From: a virus
Length of the DNA stretch: 31,669 nucleotides
Virus record (IMG/VR): IMGVR_UViG_3300042433_000232
Coordinates: 1-31,669 of that record
Direction: 5' to 3' (one strand)
Part shown: positions 5,073-25,014 of the stretch, one piece after another
How the letters are laid out: the number at the start of each line of letters is the position of its first letter
How positions within the stretch are numbered: the stretch's first letter is position 1
Notes under the pieces: generated by a model
Told to the model about the DNA's origin: nothing
The model's database searches: none
The model's input: only the letters and a program-made list of their open reading frames with translations
Program-made: the position numbers and the translations under genes

Positions 5073-5853
5073 TAAGTTTAAGTGATTCTAAATATTCATC
5101 TGATTTCATATATGTGCCTTTTGGTAATTTTAACCCATTAGCTTTGTATAATTCTTTTATTTCTTGATAAATTGGTCTGGCTGCTTTCGCTTTTTGAAAT
5201 GTGCCATGTAATCCTGGATTATTATTTACAAAAATGTTTTTTTCATTTTTAATTTGCGTATAAACTGGATTTGTATCTCCTAGGAAAAAATGCGTTCCAT
5301 CTTTTATTTTTACTTTAGATGGATGATTATCATTTAAAAAATTATGCGTACCATCTTTAATCCTTTTTTGCGCTAATTCCCGTTGAAATTCTCCGCCAAT
5401 CCAATTATGTGTACCGTCTTCAAGTCTTTTTTGTTGAATTTTTCTTTGAAATTCTCCATCTCCCAAACAATGATGCGTTCCATCATCAACTCGTTTTCTT
5501 TGTATTTTTTTCTGTTGTTCGGAAGTTGTTCCGCCATCTAATCCATTCTCTAATTTTAAATTAGCCCATTCTTCAGATTCAATTATATTATATTTTTTTG
5601 ATAGGTTAATTGCTGTAGCAACTAATACATTAATATCATTAAATAATTTGCACCATAGTGTATCAACATTCGTACCGTGTTTTTTTAAATGAGCTAACCA
5701 ATAATCTCCAGATCCATTATATTTAAATGGGTTTTTAGAATTAGTTTTACATAAATATTTTAAACCTGTTGATTTATGTTGTTTTATCATTAAATATGTT
5801 GGTTTAAAATTTTTCATTTGTTTTTCTGTTATATAAATATTTTCGCTAGACAT
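5065..5853 (-). CDS. GIY-YIG homing-type endonuclease, DGTH-repeat type
   Basis: 262 residues, start MSSENIYIT at 5853 with an AAGGAGG site. The N-terminal ~105 residues match three other genes in this window. YLMIKQH and KYLCKT stand in the places of GIY and YIG, so the usual glycine after the second tyrosine is replaced by cysteine. NGSGDYWLAHLKKHG follows. The C-terminal part is a series of about 20-residue repeats centred on DGTH (for example KRLEDGTHNWIGGEFQ) and probably contacts DNA. The gene ends with a segment LPKGTYMKSDEYLESLK that recurs in the gene at 13126. It sits between two virion genes on the same strand and carries the shared hairpin leader. Nuclease activity is inferred. 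Confidence 0.78.
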   Translation of the reverse strand: MSSENIYITEKQMKNFKPTYLMIKQHKSTGLKYLCKTNSKNPFKYNGSGDYWLAHLKKHGTNVDTLWCKLFNDINVLVATAINLSKKYNIIESEEWANLKLENGLDGGTTSEQQKKIQRKRVDDGTHHCLGDGEFQRKIQQKRLEDGTHNWIGGEFQRELAQKRIKDGTHNFLNDNHPSKVKIKDGTHFFLGDTNPVYTQIKNEKNIFVNNNPGLHGTFQKAKAARPIYQEIKELYKANGLKLPKGTYMKSDEYLESLKLKY

Positions 5854-5924
5854 TATTCCTCCTTATAATTATAATGTTTAGTGCTGGTGGGATGTGGGAG
5901 TCCGCGACCAGCTATGTATTTATT
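5854..5924 (-). promoter_or_regulatory. Hairpin leader of GIY-YIG gene, copy 1
   Basis: Read on the minus strand: AATAAATA (5924-5917, late-promoter-like), 4 bases, outer helix GCTGGT/ACCAGC (5912-5907 with 5888-5883), constant CGC, inner helix GGA/TCC, an 8-base loop, constant C, then ACTAAACAT and AAGGAGG before the ATG. Same architecture as copies 2-5 with different stem sequences. Confidence 0.8.
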
Positions 5925-6432
5925 ATATTACTTTGTTTACTGCAATTGAATTTCCAGCGCCAATATTAGTAATATTAAGTCTTCCATATGGCCAAGGAGT
6001 TGTTACTGTTGTATATGCAGTATTTGAATTAGCAACGGTAATTGGTAATGTGGCTAATGAGATCCAATGTTGTTGATCTGTTGATACTTCAATAGCAACA
6101 TTAGAACTGCCTCCAGTTGAGAATGCTTGAAGAACTGCATTAGGTGGATTAGTAAATTTAAAAGAAAATACTTCTTGTGGACCAGTTAAACCTGCTCCAT
6201 AATTTGGAGTTTTAGCAACCACACCCCACCCATCATACTGAGCATTTGAAAAATCAATAACGGCATTATTTCCAGAAACACTAGAAACTTTAGCTGCATA
6301 TCTAGCATCATTGTCTGTAAAATATAGAATTAAATCATTAGTTGCTTGAAGATATGGATTTGATTCAAAATTAATTTGTGTGTTGGCATAATCATATACA
6401 CCATATAAAGTTCTTGAAATTTCTGTTATCAT
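5923..6432 (-). CDS. Probable virion protein, hypothetical
   Basis: 169 residues, starting MITEISRTLYGVYDYANTQ with an AGGAAAT site just upstream. I do not recognise the family. The sequence is beta-rich, with many Asn, Ser, Thr and aromatic residues, has no signal peptide and no membrane segment, and shows a sandwich-like pattern (YDGWGVV, then FSFKFTNPP, VAIEVSTDQQHWISLATLP), suggesting a carbohydrate-binding-like or structural fold. It is 20 bases downstream of the fibre-like gene at 6453 and likely cotranscribed with it from the late promoter at 7757. Its stop overlaps the first bases of the downstream GIY-YIG leader. Confidence 0.55.
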   Translation of the reverse strand: MITEISRTLYGVYDYANTQINFESNPYLQATNDLILYFTDNDARYAAKVSSVSGNNAVIDFSNAQYDGWGVVAKTPNYGAGLTGPQEVFSFKFTNPPNAVLQAFSTGGSSNVAIEVSTDQQHWISLATLPITVANSNTAYTTVTTPWPYGRLNITNIGAGNSIAVNKVI

Positions 6433-8519: not shown

Positions 8520-9401
8520 ATGCTAGATATGTTAAAAGGGTTATTGGACGAAAAACTTGAAGAAGTTTCTAAATCATTATCTGATGTTGTAGTTCCATCA
8601 GTTACTGAACCAAAAATGTCACCAAAAGGCGATCCGAAAATTTTTGAGTTACAAAAAAAATTAATTGCTCGCGGTGCAAAAATCACTGCTGATGGTCTTG
8701 ATGGTCCAGCTACTAGAAAAGCTGTGAAAGATTTTCCAGACGGTACTGCAACGCCTCCTGTAGAAGAAAAACCTAAACAAATTTCTGCTGGTGTTGTGTC
8801 ATTAGGTACAGTTAAATCATTATTCCCTAAACATAAAGATCCTAGTGGATTAACTGATGCATTAAATGTTGTTCTCCCAAAATATGATATTACAGGAACT
8901 GAAAGAGTTGCGTGTTTCTTGGCACAATGCGGACACGAAAGTGCTGGGTTTACAGTTTTTATTGAAAACTTAAATTATTCAGCTGAAGGTTTATGTAAAG
9001 TTTGGCCAAAACGGTTTACTGCGGCAACCGCAGGTGCTTATAATCGCAATCCAGAAAAAATCGCTAATAAAGTCTATTGTGATCGTATGGGAAATGGTTC
9101 TGAAGCCAGCGGAGAGGGTTGGAAATATCGTGGTCGCGGTGCGATTCAGTTAACTGGAAAAGATAATTATACAAAATTCTCTAAATCTTGTGGGAAATCC
9201 CTAGACGAAACTGTTGCTTATTGTGAAACTTTAGAAGGTGCTATTGCTAGTGGCGCATTTTTCTGGAAAGAAAATAGATTAAATGAGAGATTTGTTGATA
9301 AAAAAGATTTTGTTGGATTAACTAAGGCGATTAATGGTGGAACAACAGGATTGACCGACCGTCAACATCATTATGATGCAGCTAAGAAATTGTTAGGATA
9401 A
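8520..9401 (+). CDS. Endolysin: peptidoglycan-binding domain plus GH19 chitinase-like lysozyme
   Basis: 293 residues, start ATG 8520 after AAGAGGTG. It cleaves peptidoglycan glycan strands at lysis. Residues 38-72 (KIFELQKKLIARG, then ADGLDGPATRKAVKDF) resemble a PG_binding_1 domain. Residues ~95-290 are a GH19-type catalytic domain: FLAQCGHESAGF holds the probable catalytic Glu at residue 140, followed by NYSAEGL, WKYRGRGAIQLTGKDNY and a C-terminal INGGTTGLTDR. There is no signal peptide, so it needs a holin; an amphipathic helix opens the protein. Holin-like genes follow directly. It leads the plus-strand operon running to 18770. Confidence 0.88.
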   Translation: MLDMLKGLLDEKLEEVSKSLSDVVVPSVTEPKMSPKGDPKIFELQKKLIARGAKITADGLDGPATRKAVKDFPDGTATPPVEEKPKQISAGVVSLGTVKSLFPKHKDPSGLTDALNVVLPKYDITGTERVACFLAQCGHESAGFTVFIENLNYSAEGLCKVWPKRFTAATAGAYNRNPEKIANKVYCDRMGNGSEASGEGWKYRGRGAIQLTGKDNYTKFSKSCGKSLDETVAYCETLEGAIASGAFFWKENRLNERFVDKKDFVGLTKAINGGTTGLTDRQHHYDAAKKLLG

Positions 9402-9404
9402 TCC

Positions 9405-9695
9405 ATGGATATCGGTATCCCTAATTTTTTTGATCTTGTAGAACAGTGTGGTGCACCAATAGCCATTGCTGTTGTTTGTGGTTGGTTTTTAATGCAGGCA
9501 ATTGAATTGGTTTTAGGTAGTGTTGTTAAAACAATTAAAAAATTAACAGGATTACTACGCTCAATGGATGGTCGCGTGCGTCAAATGAATGTTGATGTAC
9601 TAGATTTAGATAAATTAGTGTCAAAATCTTTAATGGTTGATCCGTTACCTAAAAAGGTACACCATGAAGTTGCTGCAGAAATGAACAAGGATTAA
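9405..9695 (+). CDS. Holin-like small membrane protein 1
   Basis: 96 residues, starting four bases after the endolysin stop. There is one hydrophobic segment at about residues 18-40 (PIAIAVVCGWFLMQAIELVLG), followed by an amphipathic, probably coiled-coil stretch (VVKTIKKLTGLLRSMDGRVRQMNVDVLDLDKLV). The layout matches the genes at 9697 and 10932, so these look like paralogues. Small size, a single membrane helix and adjacency to the endolysin suggest a holin or holin-like membrane protein. The function is inferred. Confidence 0.65.
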   Translation: MDIGIPNFFDLVEQCGAPIAIAVVCGWFLMQAIELVLGSVVKTIKKLTGLLRSMDGRVRQMNVDVLDLDKLVSKSLMVDPLPKKVHHEVAAEMNKD

Positions 9696-9696
9696 T

Positions 9697-9981
9697 ATGA
9701 ATCAAGCATATATTGGGTTTTTTTCTGATGTTATTATTCCTATTATTGCTAGTAGTGCACTAGGAAGTTTTATTTTCACAGCGTTAAAATTTGTTTTAGG
9801 TGATGTTATTACATCAGTTAGAACATTGGCGTCAATCGTTATGGCGCTGGAAAATAGAGTTAAAAATACTTCTAACGAATTAATTAAAATTGACGTTACT
9901 ATATCTGCTGTTTTAGGATTACGTCCAGATCTAGAACGTATTTCAAGATCAGATGGGCAACGAGACGCTCGCAGAGATTAG
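9697..9981 (+). CDS. Holin-like small membrane protein 2
   Basis: 94 residues, starting one base after the stop of the preceding gene, with AAGGAT as its ribosome-binding site inside that gene. The N-terminal hydrophobic segment (DVIIPIIASSALGSFIFTALKFVLG) is followed by SVRTLASIVMALENRVKNTSNELIKIDVTISAVLGL, which parallels the helical region of the neighbour at 9405. A charged tail rich in Arg and Asp ends the protein. It is likely a paralogue or partner in the holin set. The GIY-YIG cassette at 9987 was inserted directly after its stop. Confidence 0.65.
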   Translation: MNQAYIGFFSDVIIPIIASSALGSFIFTALKFVLGDVITSVRTLASIVMALENRVKNTSNELIKIDVTISAVLGLRPDLERISRSDGQRDARRD

Positions 9982-9986
9982 GGTTT

Positions 9987-10064
9987 TATAAATAAAGTAT
10001 AGGTCGCGAGTTCCGAGGCTCCACCTATTCTAAACATTCTTACAATCGTTCAAGGAGAACAATA
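9987..10064 (+). promoter_or_regulatory. Hairpin leader of GIY-YIG gene, copy 2
   Basis: Contains a perfect late-promoter box TATAAATA (9987-9994), outer helix ATAGGT/ACCTAT (9999-10004 with 10023-10028), constant CGC, inner helix GAG/CTC, an 8-base loop, constant C, then TCTAAACAT and AAGGAG before ATG 10065. The stem sequences differ from the other copies but pair fully. Confidence 0.82.
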
Positions 10065-10919
10065 ATGCTCAGCAAAAATATTTATATGCCATATTTTTAT
10101 ATTATCCGACATAAAGAAACGGGTAAACAATATGCTGGATCTAGATGGGCAAAAGGTTGTCACCCATCAGAATTTATGCAAAAAGGCGGATATACTACAT
10201 CATCTATAATAATTAATTCTATAATAGAACGGGAAGGCGTTGATGTATTTGAAATAATAGAAATTATAACTTTAGATGAACTTATAATTCCGTTTAGCGT
10301 ACAATCTGTATATCAATATGAAACATGGTTTTTAAACGAATATAATTGTGCAACTTCGCCTGATTGGTATAATAAACATAATAATGAGGGAATGGTATTT
10401 GGAACCTCAGAATTTTATGACAAATCTAAAACAACATGTTTAGAAAAATATGGTTACGAATATTGTTTACAAGCTCCAGAAATACAGGAAAAGTCTAAAC
10501 AAACTTTATTAGATAATTATGGAGTAGATTCTCCTGCAAAAAATGAAGAAATTTTAAATAGAATGAAAGACACCAATATAAAAAAATATGGTGTAGAATT
10601 TCCCTTACAATCTGACGTAATAAAAGAAAATACTAAATTAACTAATTTAGAAAGATATGGTTATGAATATGGGTTGCAATCGCCGATAATAAAAGAAAAA
10701 TCGAAACAGACTTGTTTGGAAGTATATGGAGTAGACCATCCATCAAAAGATCCAGAAATAAAAGAACGAATATTTAATACATTTAAAAAAACTAATTTAG
10801 AAAAATATGGCGTGGAATTTCATGTTAATATACAAGTTACTTGTCCATATTGTAATAAAATTGGCAATAAACCAATTATGATGCGATGGCATTTTAATAA
10901 TTGTAAATTAAAAACATAA
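10065..10919 (+). CDS. GIY-YIG homing-type endonuclease, KYG-repeat type with zinc-finger tail
   Basis: 284 residues. The nuclease domain differs from the other four in this window: YFYIIRHKETGKQYAGSRW supplies Tyr-x-Tyr-Ile and QYAGS in place of GIY and YIG. From residue ~120 there are five or six repeats of about 28 residues with the core LEKYGVEFPLQSDVIKE, found in many phage mobile nucleases and probably DNA-binding. The last 25 residues hold CPYC and H-x4-C spacing (CPYCNKIG, then WHFNNC), a likely zinc finger. Start at ATG 10065 behind AAGGAG. It interrupts the row of holin-like genes. Activity and target are not known. Confidence 0.78.
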   Translation: MLSKNIYMPYFYIIRHKETGKQYAGSRWAKGCHPSEFMQKGGYTTSSIIINSIIEREGVDVFEIIEIITLDELIIPFSVQSVYQYETWFLNEYNCATSPDWYNKHNNEGMVFGTSEFYDKSKTTCLEKYGYEYCLQAPEIQEKSKQTLLDNYGVDSPAKNEEILNRMKDTNIKKYGVEFPLQSDVIKENTKLTNLERYGYEYGLQSPIIKEKSKQTCLEVYGVDHPSKDPEIKERIFNTFKKTNLEKYGVEFHVNIQVTCPYCNKIGNKPIMMRWHFNNCKLKT

Positions 10920-10939
10920 TATGGACATAATATGGACAT
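10915..10939. repeat. Tandem 11-bp duplication at the end of the GIY-YIG gene
   Basis: CATAATATGGA occurs at 10915-10925 and again at 10926-10936. It covers the endonuclease stop and the start codon of the next gene, leaving an extra out-of-frame ATG at 10921. This is a second case of a short tandem duplication at the 3' edge of a GIY-YIG insert. Confidence 0.85.
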
Positions 10940-11228
10940 TACAGAAATAGGCGAGTTAATCTCAAAATACGGTTTTCCGACAGTTTCATCATTTTTTATG
11001 CTCAGAATGGTTCGTTACGTTTGGGATTTTACAATCAATGAGATTAACCCAGTTTTAGGTGAAGCTAATAAAGAGTTAATTGCTCTTATTGATAGAATAC
11101 GTCTTTGTGATAACGATCTTTTGAGATTAACTGCTAAATTAAATACAGTTCTTCAAATTCGTGAAAAGGCTTTATTACAACAAGATCAAGAAGAACCGCC
11201 AAAACCAAAACGTCCAAGATCAGGATAA
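10932..11228 (+). CDS. Holin-like small membrane protein 3
   Basis: 98 residues. The layout matches the proteins at 9405 and 9697: a moderately hydrophobic N-terminal segment (YGFPTVSSFFMLRMVRYVWDF), then a helical stretch NKELIALIDRIRLCDNDLLRLTAKLNTVLQI and a charged tail ending PKRPRSG. The hydrophobic segment is weaker than in the other two. It is probably a third member of the holin-like group, separated from them only by the GIY-YIG insertion. It is immediately followed by csgF. Confidence 0.6.
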   Translation: MDITEIGELISKYGFPTVSSFFMLRMVRYVWDFTINEINPVLGEANKELIALIDRIRLCDNDLLRLTAKLNTVLQIREKALLQQDQEEPPKPKRPRSG

Positions 11229-11232
11229 TTAT

Positions 11233-11679
11233 ATGAGAAAACACCTATTAAAGTTGTTTTTTATTATGTGTTTTTCAATTGATGTTAACGCCTCTAATCT
11301 AGTTTATGAATTCAATAATCCATCATTTTCGGGAAATGGTTGGTCAACTCAAGTAATAACTCTAGAACAAATAGAATCCGCTCGAAAGCAAAAAATAAAA
11401 GATGATGCAGCAGCTGGCATAGCCAAAGCTGCAGCTGATGCTAAAAATAGCAATTTATCTAAATTTTTAGTTAATGTTGAGTCCAGGATTTACGCTCAAT
11501 TATCCAAACAATTAGCTGATCAAATGTTTACTGATAGTGGAGCAACATCAGGTACAATGGATTTTCAGGGAACATCTATTAATTGGGTTAAAGGTGCAAC
11601 TGATGTATCGTTAACAATTACAGAATCTAATGGTAATACCACTGATATTATAGTTCCTATTGGTCAGTTTGGATTTTAA
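11233..11679 (+). CDS. csgF: CsgF-like curli assembly protein
   Basis: 148 residues from ATG 11233 (an upstream in-frame start at 11161 would overlap the previous gene and would bury the signal peptide). A Sec signal peptide (MRKHLLKLFFIMCFSIDVNA) precedes SNLVYEFNNPSFSGN. The mature N-terminus with the NPSFSG/GN pattern is characteristic of CsgF, whose N-terminal segment plugs into the CsgG pore. In curli systems CsgF lies in or on the outer membrane and couples secretion to nucleation. The gene directly precedes csgG, as in bacteria. The C-terminal half has alternating polar beta strands. Confidence 0.8.
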   Translation: MRKHLLKLFFIMCFSIDVNASNLVYEFNNPSFSGNGWSTQVITLEQIESARKQKIKDDAAAGIAKAAADAKNSNLSKFLVNVESRIYAQLSKQLADQMFTDSGATSGTMDFQGTSINWVKGATDVSLTITESNGNTTDIIVPIGQFGF

Positions 11680-11680
11680 T

Positions 11681-12457
11681 ATGAAATATATGATTTTATC
11701 CATATTATTGCTTACAGGGTGTTCTCAAATTGCTTTGGATATTATGAGAGAAGATCCCGTTCCTATAACATCAAGAATCACATTAAGTAATAAATTACCG
11801 GAATTGGAAGGACCAGCAATACCAATTTCTATTTACGATTTTACTGATAAAACTGGGCAACGTAAACCATCAGACAAATTAGCTCAATTATCAACAGCTG
11901 TTCCACAGGGAGCAGAATCGTTTGTTATCAAAGCATTACAAGATTCAAAAAATTGGTTTAAGGTTGTTGAACGAGTTGGTTTAGATAATTTAGTTAAAGA
12001 GCGACAATTAATTCGCAATCAACGAGATGTTTACGAAGGAAAAGAATCTAAACCATTACCTCCATTATTAGTTAGTGGATTAATGGTAACAGGTAGCATT
12101 AGTGGATACGATTCTGATATTCGTACGGGTGGAATAGGGTTAAGGTTATTTAAACTTGGATTCACCCAAGAATATAGAGTTGATCAAATTACTATCTCGA
12201 TGAGATTAATTTCTGTTTCATCTGGGGAAGTATTAGTATCAGTGGCAACAACTAAAACGATTTATAGTTTTGCTAGTGATGCTGGTGTTATGATGTTTAT
12301 TGGAACTGGTAATGTAACTGCTCTAGAAGCAGAAGTTGGAAATAGCGTCAACGAACCTATTACTGAAGGTGTTAGAGTTGCTATTGAAGACAGTGTTTAT
12401 TCTATGATAATTGAAGGGGAAAAACGAGGTCTTTGGAAATTTAAAAAGGAAAAATAG
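11681..12457 (+). CDS. csgG: CsgG-like curli secretion pore lipoprotein
   Basis: 258 residues from ATG 11681, one base after the csgF stop. The signal peptide ends in a lipobox LLTGC (Cys at residue 14). The body matches CsgG: IYDFTDKTGQRKPSD near residue 57, SKNWFKVVERVGLDNLVKER near 98, LLVSGLMVTGSISGYDSDI near 142 and TGGIGLRLFKLG, with a QITISMRLISVSSGEVLVS strand. CsgG forms the nonameric outer-membrane channel that exports curlin. Together with csgF and the curlin-like gene it forms a compact secretion set within the phage lysis region. It could export the curlin-like protein or serve as a lytic outer-membrane pore. Confidence 0.87.
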   Translation: MKYMILSILLLTGCSQIALDIMREDPVPITSRITLSNKLPELEGPAIPISIYDFTDKTGQRKPSDKLAQLSTAVPQGAESFVIKALQDSKNWFKVVERVGLDNLVKERQLIRNQRDVYEGKESKPLPPLLVSGLMVTGSISGYDSDIRTGGIGLRLFKLGFTQEYRVDQITISMRLISVSSGEVLVSVATTKTIYSFASDAGVMMFIGTGNVTALEAEVGNSVNEPITEGVRVAIEDSVYSMIIEGEKRGLWKFKKEK

Positions 12458-13048
12458 ATGAAAATCTTACAAACATATTTGATTATGTTTGTTATGCTCT
12501 TTGCTACTACTACATTTGCTAATGATATTTTTATTGAACAGGTTGGGAGTTTATCTGATATTACATTAACACAACAGGGTGTTGATAATCGTATTGGGAC
12601 AGCTCTTAATCCTTCATTTTTTGGTGGAAGTAGTGATGTGTCGACTATTGAACAAATTGGTTCTAGAAATGAATTAGATTTGATCGTAAATGGTGATAAT
12701 ACAACTGTTACATTAAGTACAACAGGTAATGATAATAAAGAAACAATTAATTGTGGAGTCAAAACTGCTGTGACATGTAACAATACTACAATCAATCATA
12801 CTATATCGGGTGATAATAATACTATTGACACTACAATTGGTGCTACAACTAATAGTAAAATGACTGTAACTGGTGATAGTAATGCTATTACTCATACAAG
12901 TACAAGTTCTGGTATTGTATCTGCTGATTTAACTTTAACTGGTAACAGTAATACAATTGATTTAACTCAAAGCGGAACTTTGGATAAGAGTATAAAAATT
13001 GAAAGTACTGGTTCTAACAATAATATTACTGTTAATCAATCCAATTAA
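12458..13048 (+). CDS. Curlin-like secreted amyloid-type protein
   Basis: 196 residues, starting directly after the csgG stop. The Sec signal peptide ends near TTTFA. The mature protein is a series of imperfect curlin-like repeats: IEQVGSLSDITLTQQGVDN, IEQIGSRNELDLIVNGDN, TVTGDSNAITH, LTLTGNSNTIDLTQSG and a final GSNNNITVNQSN. The spaced Gln/Gly/Asn pattern is that of CsgA/CsgB, which fold as stacked beta strands. It is the likely substrate of the CsgG pore encoded next door. It has a central Cys pair (residues ~88 and ~95) that is unusual for curlin. No CsgE or second curlin is seen here. Confidence 0.72.
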   Translation: MKILQTYLIMFVMLFATTTFANDIFIEQVGSLSDITLTQQGVDNRIGTALNPSFFGGSSDVSTIEQIGSRNELDLIVNGDNTTVTLSTTGNDNKETINCGVKTAVTCNNTTINHTISGDNNTIDTTIGATTNSKMTVTGDSNAITHTSTSSGIVSADLTLTGNSNTIDLTQSGTLDKSIKIESTGSNNNITVNQSN

Positions 13049-13125
13049 TATAAATAGACGGTAGTCGCGGATCCCCCGATCCCACTACCTCTAAACATTT
13101 TTACACTTAATCAAGAGGATTAACA
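13049..13125 (+). promoter_or_regulatory. Hairpin leader of GIY-YIG gene, copy 3
   Basis: Perfect TATAAATA (13049-13056) immediately after the stop of the curlin-like gene, outer helix GGTAGT/ACTACC (13060-13065 with 13084-13089), constant CGC, inner helix GGAT/ATCC, a 6-base loop, constant C, then CTCTAAACAT and GAGGA before ATG 13126. Confidence 0.82.
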
Positions 13126-13974
13126 ATGTCCAGCGCAAATATTTATATTATCACAGAACAACAGCGTTTAAATTTTAAACCAACATATCTTTATATCAAA
13201 CAACATTCAGTTACTGGATTAAAATATTTCGGAAAAACGATTAAATCTGATCCAATAAAATATAAAGGATCTGGTATTAGGTGGTCAAAACATATAAAAA
13301 AACACGGAACTAAATTTGTTACCACTTTATGGTATAAATTATATACAGATATAGATGAATTATTATCCGTTGCTATAACTCTATCTGAAATTTATGATAT
13401 CGTGGATTCTGATTTTTGGGCGAATATTGTGCCAGAAAATGGGTTAACTGGCGGAGATTCTGAAACTGTTAGAAGGCAACAAAAAGAGAAAGTTGCAGAA
13501 GGAACCCATAATTTTTTAGGTGGGGAGATTGGGGGGAGTTTTTCAAGAGAACGAGTTTTAAATGGAACCCATAATTTTTTAGGTCCAGAATCAAATAGAA
13601 AGCGAATAGCTGATGGAACACATCCATTTTTAAATTCCGATTTTCAAAGAAATGTTCAATTAAAATTATTATCTGAAGGGACTCATATATTCCTTAATCC
13701 AGAATTTCGAGAAAATCAATCTAATAGAGTTAAAGAAATGAATGCAACAAACGTCTCTAATGGTACGCACCCTTTTTTAGGACCGGAGTTGAATAAAAAA
13801 CGAATAGCTGATGGGACACATCCTTTACTCACTTTATCCAAACAAAGATCTAATAGAAAAATATATCTTGACATAAAAGAATTAGCTAAAACATTAAAGA
13901 TTAAATTACCACCTGGGCTAAATATGAAATCTGATGAATTTTTATTGAAATTTAAAGACAAATATTTGACTTAA
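13126..13974 (+). CDS. GIY-YIG homing-type endonuclease, GTH-repeat type
   Basis: 282 residues. The N-terminal domain is closely related to those of the genes at 5853, 17600 and 25015: INFKPTYL-like lead, YLYIKQHSVTGLKYFGKT with an intact YFG motif, and KGSGIRWSKHIKKHG. The C-terminal part contains repeats with the core GTHNFLG or GTHPFLG, each about 20 residues, and ends with LPPGLNMKSDEFLLKFKDKY, almost the same end as the gene at 5065-5853. The stop is one base before the start of the FecR gene, so the insert sits cleanly between curlin-like and FecR genes. Nuclease activity and target are inferred. Confidence 0.8.
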   Translation: MSSANIYIITEQQRLNFKPTYLYIKQHSVTGLKYFGKTIKSDPIKYKGSGIRWSKHIKKHGTKFVTTLWYKLYTDIDELLSVAITLSEIYDIVDSDFWANIVPENGLTGGDSETVRRQQKEKVAEGTHNFLGGEIGGSFSRERVLNGTHNFLGPESNRKRIADGTHPFLNSDFQRNVQLKLLSEGTHIFLNPEFRENQSNRVKEMNATNVSNGTHPFLGPELNKKRIADGTHPLLTLSKQRSNRKIYLDIKELAKTLKIKLPPGLNMKSDEFLLKFKDKYLT

Positions 13975-13975
13975 T

Positions 13976-15034
13976 ATGCAATTTTGTGTATTTGTATTTT
14001 TAACATTTATATCAGTGAATGTTTTATCTGATATAGGGAAAATCGAATACCAAACAGGATTAGCTGAAATTAATAGGAATAATAGATCCTATGCAACTAA
14101 AGAGCAATTTCCAGTAGAATCTAAAGATTCTATTATTACAGCTAATTCTAAACTTAATATTAAATTTGAAGATAATACACGAGTTGCTGTGTCTGAACAA
14201 AGTAAACTTATTATTGATGATTTTATATACGACCCTAAAAAAACAGCAGGGAAATTAGCTTTAAAGTTTGCTTTAGGAACTGTTAGATATACTTCAGGAC
14301 AAATTGCTAAACATAATCCTCAAACAGTATCTATTAATACGCCGACTTCCGTAATTTCAATTCGGGGCACTGATTTTAGCGCCACTGTTGATGAATTAGG
14401 TAAAAGTACAATTATTTTATTACCCAGTTGTGATATTACTGGTTGTGTTACAGGTGCTATTGAAGTTTCTACTGATGCAGGGTTTGTTTTAATGAACCAA
14501 GCATTCCAGACAACAGTTGTATCAGATAAAAATTCTGCTCCAACAAAACCTGTTATCATATCAATCGATGCAGCTAATATAGATAATACATTAATTGTAT
14601 CTCCTCCTGTAAAATCTACAGATAATTCAACAAAAGTAGAACAAATAAAAACTGATTTAGATATTAATTTTCTTGATCAAGATTTTTTATCATACAAACA
14701 ATTAGATTTAAATGTTTTAGATTTAAGCAGCGAATTAGATAAAAATTATCTTGAGGTTGCTTTAATGGAAGATATGTTGAACGCTACTAATCAAGTCGGC
14801 AGCGATTTATTAGCTGTTGGGGTAATGTTGCCTGGATATAATGAGGCTAGTAATTTAAAATATTATATTAATTCTATTGAACAATTAGTATTAAACAAAT
14901 CATCAAAACACCAATTTGAATTAAAAATTGATAAAAATTCAGATGCAACATTAAATTTAAATCAAGAAGGTGTTCCATTATCTCAAAGAATTAATATGGG
15001 TGTTGCAACAAAAATTACTATTATTCAAAAATAA
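13976..15034 (+). CDS. Secreted FecR-domain protein
   Basis: 352 residues. A signal peptide (QFCVFVFLTFISVNVLS) is followed by a FecR domain at about residues 20-150: GKIEYQTGLAEI, then SIITANSKLNIKFEDNTRVAVSEQSKLIID, FALGTVRYTSG and the hallmark TPTSVISIRGTDFSATVDE. FecR domains in this architecture are periplasmic, often encoded beside CHASE2 cyclases in bacteria, and are thought to sense or scaffold envelope signals. The C-terminal ~200 residues have no family I recognise. It is followed by the nuclease and cyclase genes. No cytoplasmic anti-sigma segment is present, so classical FecR sigma-factor control is unlikely. Confidence 0.8.
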   Translation: MQFCVFVFLTFISVNVLSDIGKIEYQTGLAEINRNNRSYATKEQFPVESKDSIITANSKLNIKFEDNTRVAVSEQSKLIIDDFIYDPKKTAGKLALKFALGTVRYTSGQIAKHNPQTVSINTPTSVISIRGTDFSATVDELGKSTIILLPSCDITGCVTGAIEVSTDAGFVLMNQAFQTTVVSDKNSAPTKPVIISIDAANIDNTLIVSPPVKSTDNSTKVEQIKTDLDINFLDQDFLSYKQLDLNVLDLSSELDKNYLEVALMEDMLNATNQVGSDLLAVGVMLPGYNEASNLKYYINSIEQLVLNKSSKHQFELKIDKNSDATLNLNQEGVPLSQRINMGVATKITIIQK

Positions 15035-15065
15035 ATAGTTTTTTTAAATATAACGTGAGGTAATC

Positions 15066-15779
15066 ATGAAAAAACTTGTTTTAGCACTATGTTTAGCGTT
15101 TTCTACTGCTGTATTTGCAGGAACTATTAACGAACAATGTCCGCAATTAACTGTAAACGGAACTCCACAATATGAATCTCAGCAAGGCGATCAAGAAATT
15201 TGTCATGCAAATTATGCAGTAATTCATAGATGCGGAGTAAAGGCTCCAGTTGCAGTATTTGAACATTTAACCAAAGAAGATATTACTGGTCCAGCTAAAC
15301 GAAAAGATAATTTTCACCCTGATTCTGATGTTTCCCCGCAATGTTCAGCTACTTTAGCCGATTATGCTACTGTTGGTAAAACTCATGATAGAGGACATTT
15401 ATCTCCAGCTGGAAACAATACTCAAAGTGCTGATATTATGAGCGAAAGTTTTGATTTGAGTAACATGGTAGCTCAGGTAGCAAACAATAATCGTGGGATC
15501 TGGAAACAATTAGAAACTAAAGAACGCGAAATGATTTCAACTGCAGGAACAGATTATTATATTATTTCTGGTGGCATTTTTGATCCTGGATACTCTGTAA
15601 CTGGTAATGGTTTGGGTATTCCAACTAGATTGTATAAAATAATTGTCGAGAAAAATAATAAATCCGTGCAAGCATATTTAATGCCAAATGCTGCGTTACC
15701 TGTGACAGATTTACCGAAATATCAAGTGTCGCTAGAAGAAGTTGAGCAAGCAACGCAAATGAAATTTAATTTAAAATGA
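15066..15779 (+). CDS. Secreted DNA/RNA non-specific endonuclease (NUC1/Serratia type)
   Basis: 237 residues after an ACGTGAGGT site. The signal peptide is MKKLVLALCLAFSTAVFA. The active-site motif DRGHLSPAGN lies at about residues 107-116; the His is the general base and the downstream Asn-rich segment (MVAQVANNNRGIWKQLE) carries the metal-binding Asn. The family degrades DNA and RNA with Mg2+. The four Cys residues in the N-terminal half (Cys25, 46, 56, 96) suggest disulfides in the periplasm. Its stop overlaps the start of the cyclase gene by four bases (ATGA), so the two are translationally coupled. It may degrade released nucleic acid or competing phage DNA; the role is inferred. Confidence 0.85.
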   Translation: MKKLVLALCLAFSTAVFAGTINEQCPQLTVNGTPQYESQQGDQEICHANYAVIHRCGVKAPVAVFEHLTKEDITGPAKRKDNFHPDSDVSPQCSATLADYATVGKTHDRGHLSPAGNNTQSADIMSESFDLSNMVAQVANNNRGIWKQLETKEREMISTAGTDYYIISGGIFDPGYSVTGNGLGIPTRLYKIIVEKNNKSVQAYLMPNAALPVTDLPKYQVSLEEVEQATQMKFNLK

Positions 15780-17524
15780 GAAAAGTTTTATTATCTCCAT
15801 GGTTTTCGTTGGTAACTCTAGCATTAGTAATAGTGCTACGGGTTGCTGACCCTAGTTTCATAGAATCGATTCGACTTCGATATTTCGACACAATTATAAC
15901 AAGTCAGCAAGTTAAACCTTCTGAACAAATTCGTGTTGTTAATATTGATGATGAAACGATCAAACGCTATGGTCAATTCCCATTTCCGCGTGACAAATAT
16001 GCTGAGATAATCCAGACATTATTTGACCATCAAGCTGGATTAGTTGTTTTTAACGTATTCATGCCAGAATCTGATAGGTTTGGAAAGGACAATGAACTCA
16101 AAAAAATTATTGACACCTATCCAGTTATCTTACCTGAAGTTGGGGTTAATGATTCTACTGCTAGTGTTGCCCCTAAAATTGGCGTATCCGAAATCGGTGA
16201 ATCTGCCAGACCTTGGGCGCCACAGTACAAGGGAATACAATCTAACATCCCAGAATATCAGGGTGCAGCAGGCATTGGAGTCGTTAATACCCTCCCAGAA
16301 ATTGATGGAGTCACCAGAAGAATACCCATGGTTGTATCAGCCACAGATACTCTCTACCCGTCCATCTCGATGGAAACGCTTAGAGTTGCAGCTGGAGACC
16401 CTAGCTTTCAAATTAAGTCTAATGAATCGGGGATCGAAGCAGTTAGAATCCCTCAGTTTGGAAAAATTGATACTGATGAATTTGGAAGAATCTGGATCGA
16501 TTGGTCGAACATACCGATGGAATATTCCTTCAATAGATTACCCGATAGTTTTGATGGTGGAATTGTTATTGTCGGGCTTACTGGACGAGGACTCAATAAT
16601 CCTGTCGCAACAGCTAGAGGGAACGTCTATCCGCATCAACTTCAATCTACGGTATTAGATACAATTTTAAAAGGTACTAATATTTCTAGACCAGATTGGG
16701 CAACAGTTGTTGAATTATTATCAACATTATTATTGAGTATTGTTTCTATATTATTAGTGCGGTGGAAATATGGATTTATTCCTGTTATTACAGCTATTAC
16801 CTCTATACATTTTGGTGTTAGTTATATTTTTAACAATTATCATTACCTTTTGGACGCTACGATTCCTGTTCTGGGCATTTTTCTGGTGTATGCTCATAGT
16901 TTCACTGTTAAATTTATTACTGAACTAAACGCTAAATTGCAAATTAAACGACAATTTGGAACTTATTTAAGTCCTGCATTGGTAGAAAAGTTGCAAAAAA
17001 ATCCTGAGTTGTTAACTCTTGGTGGAGAATCTAGAGAATTGACAATTTATTTTTCTGATATTAGGTCATTTACAACGCTGTCTGAGCATTATAAAACTGA
17101 TCCCATGGGGTTAACCAATTTAATAACCCGATATATGGATAAAATGTTACCTATTATAATGAAAAATGAAGGTACTGTTGGAAAACTTATTGGTGATGCT
17201 ATTATGGCATGGTGGGGTGCTCCATTAGATGTAGAAAATCACGCATCAATGGCTATTAAAACTGCAAAAGAAATGGAAATAGCATTAGCAGAATTAAATG
17301 AAGAATTAATATCTGAAGGTAAACCTCCATTACATGTTGGTGCTGGTATTAGTACTGGAACTGTATTTGTTGGTAATATGGGATCTTCTGAAAGATTTAG
17401 TTATGATATATTAGGGGATGAGGTTAATCTTGCAGCAAGATTAGAAGGACAAACTAAAGGATACGGAGTATCTTTAATATTGAGTGAAAACGCATTAAAT
17501 AGATTAAAGTTTGAAAATGTATAA
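15776..17524 (+). CDS. CHASE2-domain class III adenylate/guanylate cyclase, N-terminal and catalytic part (gene split)
   Basis: 582 residues. One membrane helix near residues 8-25 and a cluster of three at ~305-380 flank a periplasmic CHASE2 sensor (VRVVNIDDETIKRYGQFP-like start, then REKYAEIIQ-like FPRDKYAEIIQTLFDHQ). The catalytic domain has IYFSDIRSFTTLSEH (metal Asp, ~residue 425), KLIGDAIMAWWGAP (second metal Asp, ~472) and DEVNLAARLEG (catalytic Asn/Arg, ~549). It stops at LKFENV, just before the last conserved strand F-x-E-L-D-x-V-x-VKGK. That missing end is encoded after the GIY-YIG insert, at 18504, so the gene has been cut by the cassette. The mature product is probably two-chain. 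The CHASE2 region is GC-richer than the rest. Confidence 0.88.
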   Translation: MRKVLLSPWFSLVTLALVIVLRVADPSFIESIRLRYFDTIITSQQVKPSEQIRVVNIDDETIKRYGQFPFPRDKYAEIIQTLFDHQAGLVVFNVFMPESDRFGKDNELKKIIDTYPVILPEVGVNDSTASVAPKIGVSEIGESARPWAPQYKGIQSNIPEYQGAAGIGVVNTLPEIDGVTRRIPMVVSATDTLYPSISMETLRVAAGDPSFQIKSNESGIEAVRIPQFGKIDTDEFGRIWIDWSNIPMEYSFNRLPDSFDGGIVIVGLTGRGLNNPVATARGNVYPHQLQSTVLDTILKGTNISRPDWATVVELLSTLLLSIVSILLVRWKYGFIPVITAITSIHFGVSYIFNNYHYLLDATIPVLGIFLVYAHSFTVKFITELNAKLQIKRQFGTYLSPALVEKLQKNPELLTLGGESRELTIYFSDIRSFTTLSEHYKTDPMGLTNLITRYMDKMLPIIMKNEGTVGKLIGDAIMAWWGAPLDVENHASMAIKTAKEMEIALAELNEELISEGKPPLHVGAGISTGTVFVGNMGSSERFSYDILGDEVNLAARLEGQTKGYGVSLILSENALNRLKFENV

Positions 17525-17599
17525 ATAATGTGTAGATCGCGATACTACTAATATCCATCTACTCTAAACATATTCTTAACACTATTACGAGGAACAGTT
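17520..17599 (+). promoter_or_regulatory. Hairpin leader of GIY-YIG gene, copy 4
   Basis: Perfect TATAAATA (17520-17527) overlapping the premature stop of the cyclase gene, outer helix GTAGAT/ATCTAC (17532-17537 with 17557-17562), constant CGC, inner helix GATA/TATC, a 7-base loop, constant C, then TCTAAACAT and GAGGA before ATG 17600. Confidence 0.82.
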
Positions 17600-18511
17600 A
17601 TGTCCAGCGAAAATATTTATACACATACAATATCAGAATCACAACGATTAGAATTTAAACCTACTTGGTTATACATTAAATATCACCCAGTAACAGGCTT
17701 ATCTTATTTTGGTAAGACGATTAAAAATCCATACAAATATAAAGGATCTGGTCCATATTGGAAAAACCATATAAAAAAGTATAATAGTAAATTTGTAGAA
17801 ACTTTATGGTGTCATTTATTTGTGAATATTGATGAATTGGTTGAATATGCTTTATGGTTTTCTAGTGTGAACGATATTGTAGAATCCACATTATGGGCTA
17901 ATATGGTATTTGAAGATGGATTAGGTGGAAGAGGAGTAAGTGGTGCCGGTAATGGTATGTACAATAAACAGCACACAGAAGAAACGAAAAAATTAATTTC
18001 TGAAATAAAAACAGCTAATCCGGTAAAACTGTTTGCAGAAGATAATCCACGATTTGGGAAACCTGGAACATTTAAAAATAAAACCCACACTAAAGAATCT
18101 AAATTGAAAATTTCAAATTCTAAAAAGAATAAAACTTATGAAGAAATTTATGGCTCGGTTGAAAAAGCTCAAATAATGAGAGAAAAACGATCAACCGAAT
18201 CTAAAAATAGATCTGTATCTGAAATTACTAGAAAAAAATTAAGTTTAGCCAATATAGGAAAGACTAGAACTGAACAACAAAGATTAAATAATTCAAAAGC
18301 TCAAAAAGGATTACAAGCAGGATCCAATAACCCAAGAGCTTTAAAAATTAAAGCGATATCTCCAGAAGGCGAAATATTCCATATTCATGGAGAATTTAGA
18401 ATATTTTGCGAATCTAAATCATTATCTCAATCAATAGCAGGAAAAATATTGAAACATAACCATAAACCAAAATCCGGTAATTGTATTGGGTGGAGTTTTT
18501 CTTATGAATGA
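17600..18511 (+). CDS. GIY-YIG homing-type endonuclease splitting the cyclase gene (NUMOD3/NUMOD1-type tail)
   Basis: 303 residues. The N-terminal domain (LYIKYHPVTGLSYFGKT, then KGSGPYWKNHIKKY) is close to those at 13126 and 5853. The tail is different: several NUMOD3-like segments (GNGMYNKQHTEETKKLIS, then RKKLSLANIGKTRTEQQR) and a final IENR/NUMOD1-like module IKAISPEGEIFHIHGE with a helix-turn-helix-like ending GNCIGWSF. So the nuclease has been recombined with another DNA-binding tail. Its stop overlaps the start of the second cyclase fragment (ATGAATGA) and its own end supplies that fragment's ribosome-binding site GGTGGAG. The insertion point in the cyclase is the likely homing site. 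Confidence 0.8.
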   Translation: MSSENIYTHTISESQRLEFKPTWLYIKYHPVTGLSYFGKTIKNPYKYKGSGPYWKNHIKKYNSKFVETLWCHLFVNIDELVEYALWFSSVNDIVESTLWANMVFEDGLGGRGVSGAGNGMYNKQHTEETKKLISEIKTANPVKLFAEDNPRFGKPGTFKNKTHTKESKLKISNSKKNKTYEEIYGSVEKAQIMREKRSTESKNRSVSEITRKKLSLANIGKTRTEQQRLNNSKAQKGLQAGSNNPRALKIKAISPEGEIFHIHGEFRIFCESKSLSQSIAGKILKHNHKPKSGNCIGWSFSYE

Positions 18512-18770
18512 TTTTGTTGAACTCGATACAGTAGCAGTCAAGGGAAAAAAAGAAGGGATTAAGATTTTCACGGTAGCAAATCCACCACCAGAACATCAAT
18601 TATATCTAGAAGCATATTATGCTGGGGATTGGAAATCTGCTGCGATTATTTGTAAACATTTATCCGAACAACCAGGAGATCTTCAACATTATTATGAATT
18701 AATGTTAGAACGTATTTCTGGAGAATGTCCAGATAACTGGACTGGTACATATCACGCAACTTCCAAATGA
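18504..18770 (+). CDS. C-terminal fragment of the CHASE2 cyclase
   Basis: 88 residues from ATG 18504; a TTG at 18486 is in frame but the ATG has GGTGGAG 9 bases upstream. FVELDTVAVKGKKEGIKIFTV continues the cyclase catalytic domain exactly where the gene at 15776 stops (joined: NRLKFENV + NDFVELD). The rest (YLEAYYAGDWKSAAIICKHL, then CPDNWTGTYHATSK) is the TPR-like C-terminus seen in full-length CHASE2 cyclases, which often end with a p-dWdGv pattern. It is intact and has its own start, so the two pieces may associate without splicing. A terminator follows directly. Confidence 0.8.
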   Translation: MNDFVELDTVAVKGKKEGIKIFTVANPPPEHQLYLEAYYAGDWKSAAIICKHLSEQPGDLQHYYELMLERISGECPDNWTGTYHATSK

Positions 18771-18773
18771 AAA

Positions 18774-18799
18774 AAGGGAGCCGAAGCTCCCTTTATCTT

Positions 18800-18800
<1 letters not shown>
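18774..18800. terminator. Bidirectional terminator between cyclase fragment and groEL
   Basis: GGGAGC, CGAA, GCTCCC followed by TTTATCTTTT, with an A-rich run on the other side. It ends the plus-strand operon and the convergent groEL gene. Confidence 0.85.
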
Positions 18801-20431
<1,631 letters not shown>

Positions 20432-21288: not shown

Positions 21289-21321
21289 AGAAAACGGTTT
21301 ATTCTGTTTCGAGGAAAACCG
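21289..21321 (-). terminator. Terminator after the tmRNA coding piece
   Basis: On the minus strand CGGTTT (21321-21316) and AAACCG (21300-21295) form a 6-bp stem, followed by TTTTCTT. It fits the end of the tmRNA transcript. Confidence 0.6.
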
Positions 21322-21324
21322 CAA

Positions 21325-21475
21325 AAACCCAACTATAATTTTAAGCTGCTAGAGCAGTAGAATTATAGAAAGCGTCGTTTTTAGCTTCGCCATTTACTTA
21401 TTTTATGCTGATTACGTCAGTCATCTCTCGATTCTCCAGTGTTCTTTGATCTCAACGTCGAATCTGTTCACCCCC
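21325..21475 (-). ncRNA. ssrA: Two-piece (permuted) tmRNA, coding piece
   Basis: The minus strand begins GGGGGTGAACAGATTCGACG at 21475, matching the conserved 5' end of tmRNA (GGGG, then GAUUCGACG). The tag frame reads down to a TAA stop at 21343-21341: VNGEAKNDAFYNSTALAA, with the ALAA end recognised by ClpXP-type proteases. The exact resume codon is uncertain (GTA, AAT, GGC or a later codon). The stop lies in a helix CTATAATT/AATTATAG with an inner TGCT/AGCA hairpin, as in tmRNA helix P5. The 3' limit of the mature piece is estimated. Confidence 0.85.
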
Positions 21476-21571
21476 ATCAGAAACACACTTAAACTGGTCC
21501 GGCAGAATTTTTTCATTCCAGTTCGTTTATGTGACCGTCGTCACTACTTAGCTGCGGCAAAAGTATGTTTC

Positions 21572-21637
21572 TGGTGGAGGTGGGGGAATAATGCTATCCC
21601 CGTCCGCCAAAACTATTATAACACCTTCAACGAATAC
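21572..21637 (-). ncRNA. ssrA: Two-piece (permuted) tmRNA, acceptor piece
   Basis: This piece is transcribed before the coding piece, the permuted order. It ends CACCTCC-ACCA at 21582-21572, with CCA encoded. CACCTCC pairs along all seven positions with GGGGGTG of the coding piece, and the third pair is G-U, the G3-U70 identity element of alanyl-tRNA synthetase. The inserted segment 21571-21476 extends the pairing (CAGAAACA with TGTTTCTG), forming a precursor hairpin to be processed. The T-arm stem is GGGGA/TCCCC but its loop is 9 bases and lacks the usual TTCRA. The 5' limit is not clear. Confidence 0.8.
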
Positions 21638-21733
21638 TTTAAAATCACACTGCATAAGGACATAACGGACTCAAACCGAGTTCTTTGATACTATCTTACC
21701 TTATCGAACCTGAACACCTAGTGTGATTTTAAA
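21638..21733. repeat. 14-bp inverted repeat enclosing a structured segment
   Basis: TTTAAAATCACACT (21638-21651) and AGTGTGATTTTAAA (21720-21733) are perfectly complementary, separated by 68 bases. The interior holds further pairings (ATAAGG/CCTTAT and ACTC/GAGT around 21671-21691). It directly precedes the acceptor piece of the tmRNA on the minus strand and may be a processing stem or extra tmRNA domain. It has tRNA-like length but no canonical tRNA arms. Confidence 0.7.
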
Positions 21734-23486: not shown

Positions 23487-23935
23487 CGTTGCCACTCCAC
23501 AATTGTATAATCAACCATACCTTCTAAATTATTTTTAATAATATCTCGAATAATGTTCCAGTCACCACCTGCTAAACCAGCACCAATTAATGGTAACCCA
23601 ATTTTTTTACCTTTAAAATCCGTAGCAATTAATCGCATAGAATCATTGATTGCTTGATAATTTTGCTTTAGGTCATTATATCCAGGCATGTATTGAGTGT
23701 ACGCATTTACAATTGTTAAACCCTTATCCATATAGGTATGTGCGCTATATGAACCCAATTTTGTTATATCACCCTGTTCTGTTGATTTGTCTGACAAATA
23801 CGCTTCTGGATATCTATTCCTAATTTGTAGAGCAATCCCTGCGCCCATAGCGCAAAAACAATTACAACCATGAACGATAACATCGAACTCGCCAGCATCA
23901 AATAAATCTAATAAATCACCTTTAATAATTTTCAT
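23483..23935 (-). CDS. Macro domain protein, likely ADP-ribose-1''-phosphate phosphatase type
   Basis: 150 residues; start ATG 23935 overlaps the ligase stop (ATGA). The whole chain is a macro domain: IVHGCNCFCAMGAGIALQI (ligand loop), YPEAY, GDITKLGSY and GLPLIGAGLAGGDWNII (second loop) resemble the Poa1p/ALC1-like family acting on ADP-ribose-1''-phosphate or ADP-ribosylated targets. Being coupled to a DNA ligase, near a NAMPT gene, it could recycle ADP-ribose derivatives or counter ADP-ribosylating defences. The specific substrate is inferred. Confidence 0.87.
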   Translation of the reverse strand: MKIIKGDLLDLFDAGEFDVIVHGCNCFCAMGAGIALQIRNRYPEAYLSDKSTEQGDITKLGSYSAHTYMDKGLTIVNAYTQYMPGYNDLKQNYQAINDSMRLIATDFKGKKIGLPLIGAGLAGGDWNIIRDIIKNNLEGMVDYTIVEWQR

Positions 23936-24882
23936 TCTATATCCTCTAAAGTATTAGCAACAGTTTTATCATCCCTAACGCGAGAAAAAATTGGTAGGAA
24001 TAAAGATTTAATATCTGAATCTCGGTTTGAAATAATACAATTATATTTTACCTCGATAATTTTACCAACATAAGATTCTGGGTTATCTCGCTCACCTCGT
24101 TTATGTTTAAATCCAGAACCAACATTTACTCGCAATCGACCACAAGCAGTTTCACAAATTAATGATCCCAACATACCTTCAAATTGAGTTCCTGGAGTAC
24201 CATATTCAAAACCAACAACCAATAGATCCATAGGGTCTTCTGCTTTTAATTTTAATTGGTATTTAGATCGTTTGGCTTCCCATACACCATCCATTGCTTT
24301 AAGAATTCCGCCTTCTTCGCCTCGTTCTAGATTACGCTGATATTTTTGCATAACTTCTTCGCGAGAATTTACAATCTCGGATTCAACAATTTGTAATTTA
24401 GTTTGATTTTCTGGAACTGCTAGCCCAACAAATTTAAATCTTGTAGCATAACCAACTGAACAATATTCGTTTAAAAAATCATCATAAGGAATATAATCCC
24501 AGAGAACAACATACAACCCCTTAGCTTCTTCTGAGGTAATTGTTCCACGAACAGCTTTTGTTACATAACCATTAGATACTTTGCGTTCTGCTACTCGACC
24601 ATCAGGATAGCGCCACATTAATTCGCCATCTAGAATACATCTTTCATGTGTTGCAATTTCAATATCATCAAAACATGAGATATCTAGAATATTACCATTT
24701 CTGGTTGTAGCCGATACGAATTTTCCACCATCAAACTCTAGATTAATTCTAGAACTATCCATTTTACAATTATGGACCAGAATATTGTCAGCAAAAAAAT
24801 TATTAGTATTTTCGACCGTTATATCGTATAACAAATTATCACACTCTATCTCAACTACATTTTCTATTTTCATAGTTCTCAT
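23932..24882 (-). CDS. lig: ATP-dependent DNA ligase, C-terminal part with C-intein
   Basis: 316 residues. Residues 1-38 are a C-intein: YDITVENTNNFFADNILVHN followed by +1 Cys39, the block F/G pattern with terminal His-Asn. The extein begins Cys-Lys-Met-Asp-Ser-Ser-Arg, the adenylation motif I (K-x-D-x-x-R), with Lys40 as the AMP-accepting lysine. The rest matches T4 gp30: CILDGELMW, GTITSEEAKGLYVVLWDYIP, RGEEGGILKAMDGVWEAKRSKYQLKLKAEDPMD pattern, KVNVGSGF-like RVNVGSGF. This half has its own ATG and a weak ribosome-binding site. It must be joined in trans with the product at 26819 to regenerate an active ligase. Confidence 0.9.
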   Translation of the reverse strand: MRTMKIENVVEIECDNLLYDITVENTNNFFADNILVHNCKMDSSRINLEFDGGKFVSATTRNGNILDISCFDDIEIATHERCILDGELMWRYPDGRVAERKVSNGYVTKAVRGTITSEEAKGLYVVLWDYIPYDDFLNEYCSVGYATRFKFVGLAVPENQTKLQIVESEIVNSREEVMQKYQRNLERGEEGGILKAMDGVWEAKRSKYQLKLKAEDPMDLLVVGFEYGTPGTQFEGMLGSLICETACGRLRVNVGSGFKHKRGERDNPESYVGKIIEVKYNCIISNRDSDIKSLFLPIFSRVRDDKTVANTLEDIE

Positions 24883-24914
24883 AATAAATTTCCAATTTAA
24901 AGCTGTATATTGAT

Positions 24915-25014
24915 AATAAATAGTTGACCGTTTAAATGAATATTAAACGATGCTTATCGCGGAATAGCAGTTCCCATAAGCACTAATCATCAACTATCAA
25001 ATATAGGAATCGAT
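24915..25014 (+). promoter_or_regulatory. Hairpin leader of GIY-YIG gene, copy 5, with extra helices
   Basis: AATAAATA (24915-24922), then an outer helix AGTTGA/TCAACT (24922-24927 with 24990-24995), an added hairpin CGTTTAA/TTAAACG (24929-24949), and the common element: helix TGCTTAT/ATAAGCA (24951-24957 with 24976-24982), constant CGC, inner helix GGAA/TTCC, 6-base loop, constant C, and CTAATCAT. It is thus a three-way-junction version of copies 1-4. Confidence 0.8.

Follow-up and report, generated by a model that had tools for sequence, protein, structure and literature searches.

Why do abundant aquatic phages carry curli genes, and what might these genes do beside a FecR protein and a membrane cyclase? 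The question is raised by a viral fragment of 31,669 bases (IMG/VR record IMGVR_UViG_3300042433_000232, analysed whole and called the window here), in which positions 11233-18770 hold six genes for envelope proteins, all in the same direction: homologues of CsgF and CsgG, a curlin, a FecR protein, a secreted nuclease and a CHASE2 cyclase. This run had been described in an initial annotation made from the letters alone, and the Pfam families and coordinates collected in Table 1 agree with it. Several guesses at the purpose of the curli genes have been published, and no functional test was found in the literature. Our tentative reading, held with somewhat less than even confidence, is that the phage carries a fibre-linked envelope signalling module, in which FecR would tie an amyloid-type fibre to the CHASE2 cyclase. 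The main new observation is a hint from sequence comparison, namely a curlin-like repeat at the C-terminus of the phage FecR.

The phage FecR consists of a signal peptide, the FecR domain (about 14135-14410), a low-confidence linker and C-terminal curlin-like strands (about 14855-15031), and its AlphaFold2 model (pLDDT 82) places six short strands at residues 294-351. The last 45 columns of the FecR alignment align to the C-terminal repeats of curlins (hhalign E 3.3e-5, probability 72%), whereas in 45-column stretches not overlapping the tail the curlin match had an E of at least 0.06 throughout. A strand-Q motif closes 160 of the 176 complete phage FecRs but only 2 of 25 FecRs from bacteria. 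The parts recognised in bacterial FecRs are LysM, TPR or TbpB-like, unlike the curlin repeat of the phage protein. Searched against the PDB, the model gave hits to PupR and BDI_1681; at E 2e-4 it resembles the cell-surface-signalling domain of PupR and an anti-sigma factor, and at E 6e-3 (root mean square deviation 0.9 over 62 columns) the cell-surface anchoring domain 5ix9. The domain 5ix9 is taken here as a retention module from a large adhesin, and the LapA retention model is weakly matched (0.001) by two of the bacterial FecR partners. Anchoring of the phage FecR in the fibre would fit the likeness of its tail to curlin.

The second line of evidence is the linkage of the genes. Viral contigs were scanned with single proteins and with alignments of the cyclase, CsgG and FecR, giving about 280 loci; the queries were members of the module family and the best 80 were kept per scan, so that rarer arrangements outside it could escape. 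With hidden Markov models built from the family, FecR and the cyclase were found in all 103 non-redundant CsgG loci of IMG/VR having at least 9 kb downstream, together with a curlin in 101, CsgF in 100, the small membrane proteins TM3 and TM2 in 93 and 90, and the nuclease in 8. Conversely, FecR and CsgG accompany the cyclase in each of the 93 cyclase loci that extend 9 kb upstream, and because of this linkage in both directions the clustering is not due to chance. The commonest order is CsgF-CsgG-curlin-FecR-curlin-cyclase (57 loci), followed by the same order without the second curlin (34 loci), and the cultured phages HTVC008M and Melnitz have the same gene set. The initial annotation had suggested an envelope programme and had named failure of the genes to co-occur in related phages as evidence against it. 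The opposite was found: the genes always stand together in the sampled loci, and export pore, curlin substrate, FecR/CHASE2 sensing and cAMP-type cyclase form a set whose order is conserved across many phages.

The gene set has already been described for marine pelagiphages, and the window is a variant from another clade. PMC9599517 (2022) gives HK-CsgF-CsgG-CsgA/B-FecR-CsgA/B-cyclase in podo- and myo-pelagiphages as a type VIII secretion cluster, in which the second CsgA/B may be missing and one or two genes usually lie upstream, and suggests defence against superinfection, sibling capture or import; partial gene sets are given in PMC7029224 and PMC9004378. The window clade differs in having a NUC1-type nuclease in the second-curlin slot, an adjoining endolysin and insertions of homing-endonuclease genes (HEGs). 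The upstream gene is labelled a histidine kinase in PMC9599517, whereas this position is occupied here by one-helix proteins (median 93 and 104 residues) with no Pfam kinase domain, which may not be the same genes. Neither the FecR tail nor adhesin heads on curlins appear in the available part of its account of the pelagiphage cluster.

Bacteria were sampled from two sides. FecR lies directly beside the cyclase in 13 of the neighbourhoods of the 80 best bacterial CHASE2 cyclases; CsgF is in none of the 80, and one has a weak CsgG-like neighbour (33 bits). In 754 genomes of alpha- and gammaproteobacterial type, CsgF was matched in 12, and ten csgG loci read over about 9 kb showed no FecR or CHASE2 cyclase. 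In bacteria a FecR-CHASE2 cyclase pair thus occurs at times, and no sampled locus adds csgFG to it. Since no sampled bacterial locus has both, the phage module joins two bacterial units not found together in the sampled cells. One is the bacterial curli (type VIII secretion) operon, which shares CsgF, CsgG and curlin repeats with the phages, in the order CsgF-CsgG-curlins in the bacterial loci L158-L160, and whose exporter features, a CsgG-family protein with lipobox and a curlin-repeat substrate, are present in the window; unlike the phage module, it has no FecR or CHASE2 cyclase nearby in the ten loci read. The other is the FecR-CHASE2 pair, shown by gene order in phages and in some bacteria, in which the FecR gene adjoins that of a CHASE2 membrane sensor; in the window only the slot gene lies between. 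A Burkholderia operon of LysM-FecR and a CHASE2 kinase (BiofilmReg) has been linked to biofilm (PMC5192318).

With FecR/PupR cell-surface signalling the module shares the FecR domain fold; it differs in that the phage output would be a cyclase and not a sigma factor, and in having no TonB receptor. This difference bears on the proposal that CsgG is an open outer-membrane pore for nutrient or siderophore uptake during infection (PMC7029224 and PMC9599517). The name FecR recalls iron signalling, and CsgG was reported in the latter without a recognised CsgE gate; still, a curlin accompanies CsgG almost everywhere, and neither a TonB receptor nor a sigma factor adjoins the FecR domain, which also serves in surface signalling of other kinds, so that we regard an uptake pore as very improbable.

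The profile of the phage CsgG family aligns over its full length to E. coli CsgG (2e-73), and a lipobox is present in 173 of 185 phage CsgGs; the position of Tyr51 in the E. coli constriction loop is not Tyr in the phage loops listed, but bacterial CsgGs vary there too and the residue was not used. The model of curlin 1 has 14 short strands (pLDDT 89, pTM 0.81). Between FecR and the cyclase, 100 of 185 slot genes belong to one curlin-type cluster of 82-1,164 residues. Among 62 curlin-type proteins (60 encoded in the slot or a position equivalent to it, 2 between CsgF and CsgG), matches were to Curlin_rpt in 29, PA14 in 9, F5/8C in 7, GLEYA in 4 and an autotransporter domain in 2, with some slot curlins joined to PA14 or F5/8C domains. 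The nuclease, which fills the slot in the window clade, is accessory given its low frequency; in another group it lies between TM3 and TM2 on the opposite strand, and from these two places it must have joined the module more than once. The slot or its vicinity also holds a calcineurin-like phosphoesterase (15 loci) or a glycosyltransferase-like gene (10 loci), for instance at L018 12455-15378 and L044 15275-17185.

The chemistry of the cyclase could be read from 169 phage sequences. The two metal-binding Asp and the adenine-binding Lys are invariant, Asp548 and Arg555 are found in every readable row, Thr, Asp or Ser occupies position 544, and the transition-state Asn551 is kept in 111 sequences and replaced by Ser in 57. 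The class III adenylate cyclase set (two metal Asp, adenine Lys with Asp/Thr/Ser, Asn and Arg) is complete in the window copy, as D428, K470, D474, D544, D548, N551 and R555. These residues point to cAMP rather than cGMP as the product; of the two alternatives first suggested, cGMP is disfavoured by the invariant adenine-type Lys and by Asp/Thr/Ser at the second specificity position. A phage-encoded cAMP receptor was rejected as a rule, a cyclic nucleotide-binding protein being present in only one of 31 large module contigs: the gene at L010 6389-7039 (-), next to csgF and pointing away from it, encodes a candidate receptor that has a cyclic nucleotide-binding domain and is hydrophobic in its C-terminal part. 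Small stand-alone proteins resembling the cyclase C-terminal tail occur near the module in L181 (2699-3073), L176 (7883-8239) and L185 (20081-20449).

In the model, whose pore, fibre, FecR anchoring, FecR-CHASE2 contact, cAMP output and benefit to the phage we infer from sequence, CsgG and CsgF would form an outer-membrane pore, as their homology indicates, through which the curlins would cross to assemble on the infected cell. FecR, reaching the periplasm by its signal peptide, would join or nucleate the fibre with its curlin-like tail while the folded FecR domain stays periplasmic, as its architecture suggests; hanging on the fibre in the CsgG pore, it would signal to the cyclase. The CHASE2 domain of the inner-membrane cyclase would sense the state of FecR through a putative contact and set the cAMP output. 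In some phages that have a second curlin, this protein bears an adhesin-type PA14 or F5/8C head, so that the input could be either fibre completion or ligand binding. The cAMP would act on a host receptor, because none was found in most module phages, and the benefit would probably be a host-cell surface remodelled during infection, either to attach neighbours or to keep other phages out. A stronger claim, which we hold possible with distinctly less confidence, is that phages have here built a device without known bacterial counterpart: FecR, ending in a curlin repeat, would be the base subunit of an amyloid fibre, and the CHASE2 cyclase would read the state of this fibre outside the cell, be it assembly or binding by adhesin heads, and pass it on as cAMP inside. 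If true, the phage would be running second-messenger signalling in which the message passes from the exterior of the cell to its interior. From the link of FecR to curlin and the adhesin heads on curlins a concrete, separable prediction follows: cAMP should change with the fibre, and the change should require the last 45 residues of FecR.

A rival explanation, close to that in PMC9599517, is a curli fibre that brings about aggregation (sibling capture) or excludes other phages, while FecR and the cyclase only regulate expression and have no connection with the fibre. This published proposal agrees with the completeness of the export set, with its one or two curlins and with the adhesin-like heads on some of them; it leaves unexplained why FecR and the cyclase are constantly retained in the sampled set and why the phage FecR carries a curlin-like repeat lacking in bacterial FecR partners, and we consider it rather unlikely. 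Several observations weigh against fibre-linked signalling itself. Curlin repeats are simple and the likeness of the FecR tail, at the hhalign probability given above, could be convergent; the FecR part matching 5ix9 is ambiguous. CsgF had no match among PDB sequences at 0.01, and the curlin 1 model none of significance in the PDB (FapC E 0.07, CsgA 1.2). CsgE is reported absent in PMC9599517, no CsgE search being made in the present analysis, and no clumping was seen with Melnitz (PMC9004378). Cyclases with Ser for the transition-state Asn may be weak enzymes, and the cyclic nucleotide-binding protein is confined to L010 among the 31 large contigs.

Table 1. Features of the module and its surroundings in the window
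Feature	Position	Strand	Evidence or remark
Endolysin, peptidoglycan-binding and GH19-like	8520..9401	+	PHROG_181 1.2e-68; linked mainly in window clade
TM1, 96-residue membrane protein, paralogue of TM2/TM3	9405..9695	+	PHROG_18771 4e-13
TM2, 94-residue membrane protein	9697..9981	+	PHROG_18771 9e-23; 90/103 loci
HEG1, DUF7487-bearing, mobile insert between TM2 and TM3	10065..10919	+	Absent from L015
TM3, 98-residue membrane protein	10932..11228	+	PHROG_18771 5e-18; 93/103 loci
CsgF homologue	11233..11679	+	PF10614 1.6e-18; Sec-type signal
CsgG homologue, outer-membrane export pore lipoprotein	11681..12457	+	PF03783 2.3e-47; lipobox LLTGC
Curlin 1, amyloid-type subunit with curlin repeats	12458..13048	+	PF07012 (Curlin_rpt) 2.6e-7
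HEG2 leader	13049..13125	+	TATAAATA and covarying hairpin
HEG2, GIY-YIG-like by eye, mobile insert between curlin and FecR	13126..13974	+	No Pfam match; absent from L003, L004
FecR protein	13976..15034	+	PF04773 4e-10
Secreted NUC1-type nuclease, accessory	15066..15779	+	PF01223 (Endonuclease_NS) 4e-36; DRGH motif
CHASE2 adenylate cyclase, first piece	15776..17524	+	PF05226 (CHASE2) 1e-38; PF00211 (Guanylate_cyc) 2.7e-19
HEG3, NUMOD3 motif, inside cyclase gene	17600..18511	+	PF07460 3e-7; last codons overlap cyclase 3' piece in other frame
Second piece of cyclase with final strands and conserved C-terminal tail	18504..18770	+	ATG 18504 or TTG 18486
Terminator-like hairpin, both strands, between module and groEL	18773..18794	.	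Closes directon

The genes upstream of csgF had led the initial annotation to place the module in a phage lysis operon, and CsgG has been proposed as a pinholin-like or secretin-like pore timing lysis together with small membrane proteins (PMC9004378). An endolysin and three membrane proteins of holin size, about 95 residues, do lie directly upstream in the window, and the same endolysin family adjoins the cyclase in L005 and L006; the membrane proteins are not recognised as holins. TM1 to TM3 belong to one uncharacterised phage family (PHROG_18771) with a single weak holin match (0.007), and no convincing match of TM2 or TM3 to holins or kinases was obtained (YvrJ-like at 0.004 in 4 of 52). 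The endolysin family of the window is found near the module in about 12 loci only, mostly of the window clade, so that the constant linkage of endolysin and holin typical of a lysis cassette is missing; in other loci the genes that recur beside the module are those for Hsp20, a ClpS-type protein, an ssDNA-binding protein, ribonucleotide reductase and tail genes. Both the nuclease and the adjoining endolysin are confined to particular lineages, so that a lysis operon is not supported as the usual context of the module. A lysis device would also leave no part for curlin, FecR and cyclase, and CsgG is no inner-membrane holin but a lipoprotein that resembles the exporter of the E. coli outer membrane along its whole length. 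The lysis role was proposed for Melnitz since curlins seemed absent (PMC9004378), yet its record lists two curlin-repeat proteins and FecR. We consider lysis timing improbable.

The HEG-type genes within the module (HEG2, HEG3) and just upstream (HEG1) had been missed at first. The cyclase gene is in two pieces with HEG3 between them, the break being at about 17522: the first piece, which holds all catalytic residues, stops after ...LKFENV, and the remainder of the domain and the conserved tail resume in the second. Compared with the uninterrupted cyclase of L005 (...SENVLGGFLHMNEFF...), the insertion lies between ...GAAAATGT and TTGGGTGG... Since Rfam showed no group I intron in the window and the insert is almost entirely taken up by the open reading frame, an intron of that kind was rejected in favour of a gene in pieces. 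The first 1,184 nt are 98% and the last 201 nt 97.5-99% identical to the intact cyclases of L002-L004, whereas block 16960-18569, with the catalytic domain and HEG3, is a different allele between flanks about 98% identical. As this block holds HEG3, the simplest reading is that homing carried the flanking catalytic domain along (co-conversion).

The interruption could mean that the module is decaying in this phage, its cyclase inactivated by the HEG. We give this hardly any weight, given that the first piece keeps the catalytic residues and the second an open frame and a start codon, that L008 has the same arrangement, and that in L007 another HEG occupies this site, both pieces likewise being open. 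The HEG-split NrdA of phage Aeh1 still works as an enzyme. Phage genes split by HEGs are a known arrangement (Aeh1 nrdA, PMC2988022).

HEG2 is missing from L003 and L004 and HEG1 from L015, so that these genes are passengers. Leaders precede all five HEG-type genes of the window (5853-5930 (-), 9985-10064, 13049-13125, 17520-17599 and 24910-25014) and consist of a TATAAATA or AATAAATA box, a two-part hairpin with a CGC/C internal loop and a CTAA(A/T)CAT tail. Over 11 sequences, 98% of the hairpin cells are paired, against 28-44% in slid controls, and 8 of 10 pairs vary on both sides. The one leader tested (13030-13140) had no Rfam match, and no published description of this covarying leader family was found in the literature; late promoters and leader hairpins are known for T4-type HEGs (PMC2988022). 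Because the HEGs come with TATAAATA-type leaders, the suggestion that tight spacing indicates one transcript fits best the HEG-free arrangement; in the window, HEGs and leaders break up the run. A sigma-70 promoter scan gave no more matches than shuffled sequence.

Outside the module, the window encodes a phage GroEL at 18800-20419 (-), convergent with the module (Cpn60 2e-76, Pfam), and a permuted tmRNA of alphaproteobacterial type at 21293-21683 (-). An ATP-dependent DNA ligase (23932-24882 (-) and 26049-26819 (-)) is split at its active-site motif, apparently by a split intein, and between its halves lies an HEG-type gene on the opposite strand (25015-26103 (+); Pfam ligase and Intein_splicing matches). 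A tail-fibre-like open reading frame at 3-1910 has tandem repeats of about 30-35 residues (SRTNAANTFLQANDGITLTAARNYTDLANSFN).

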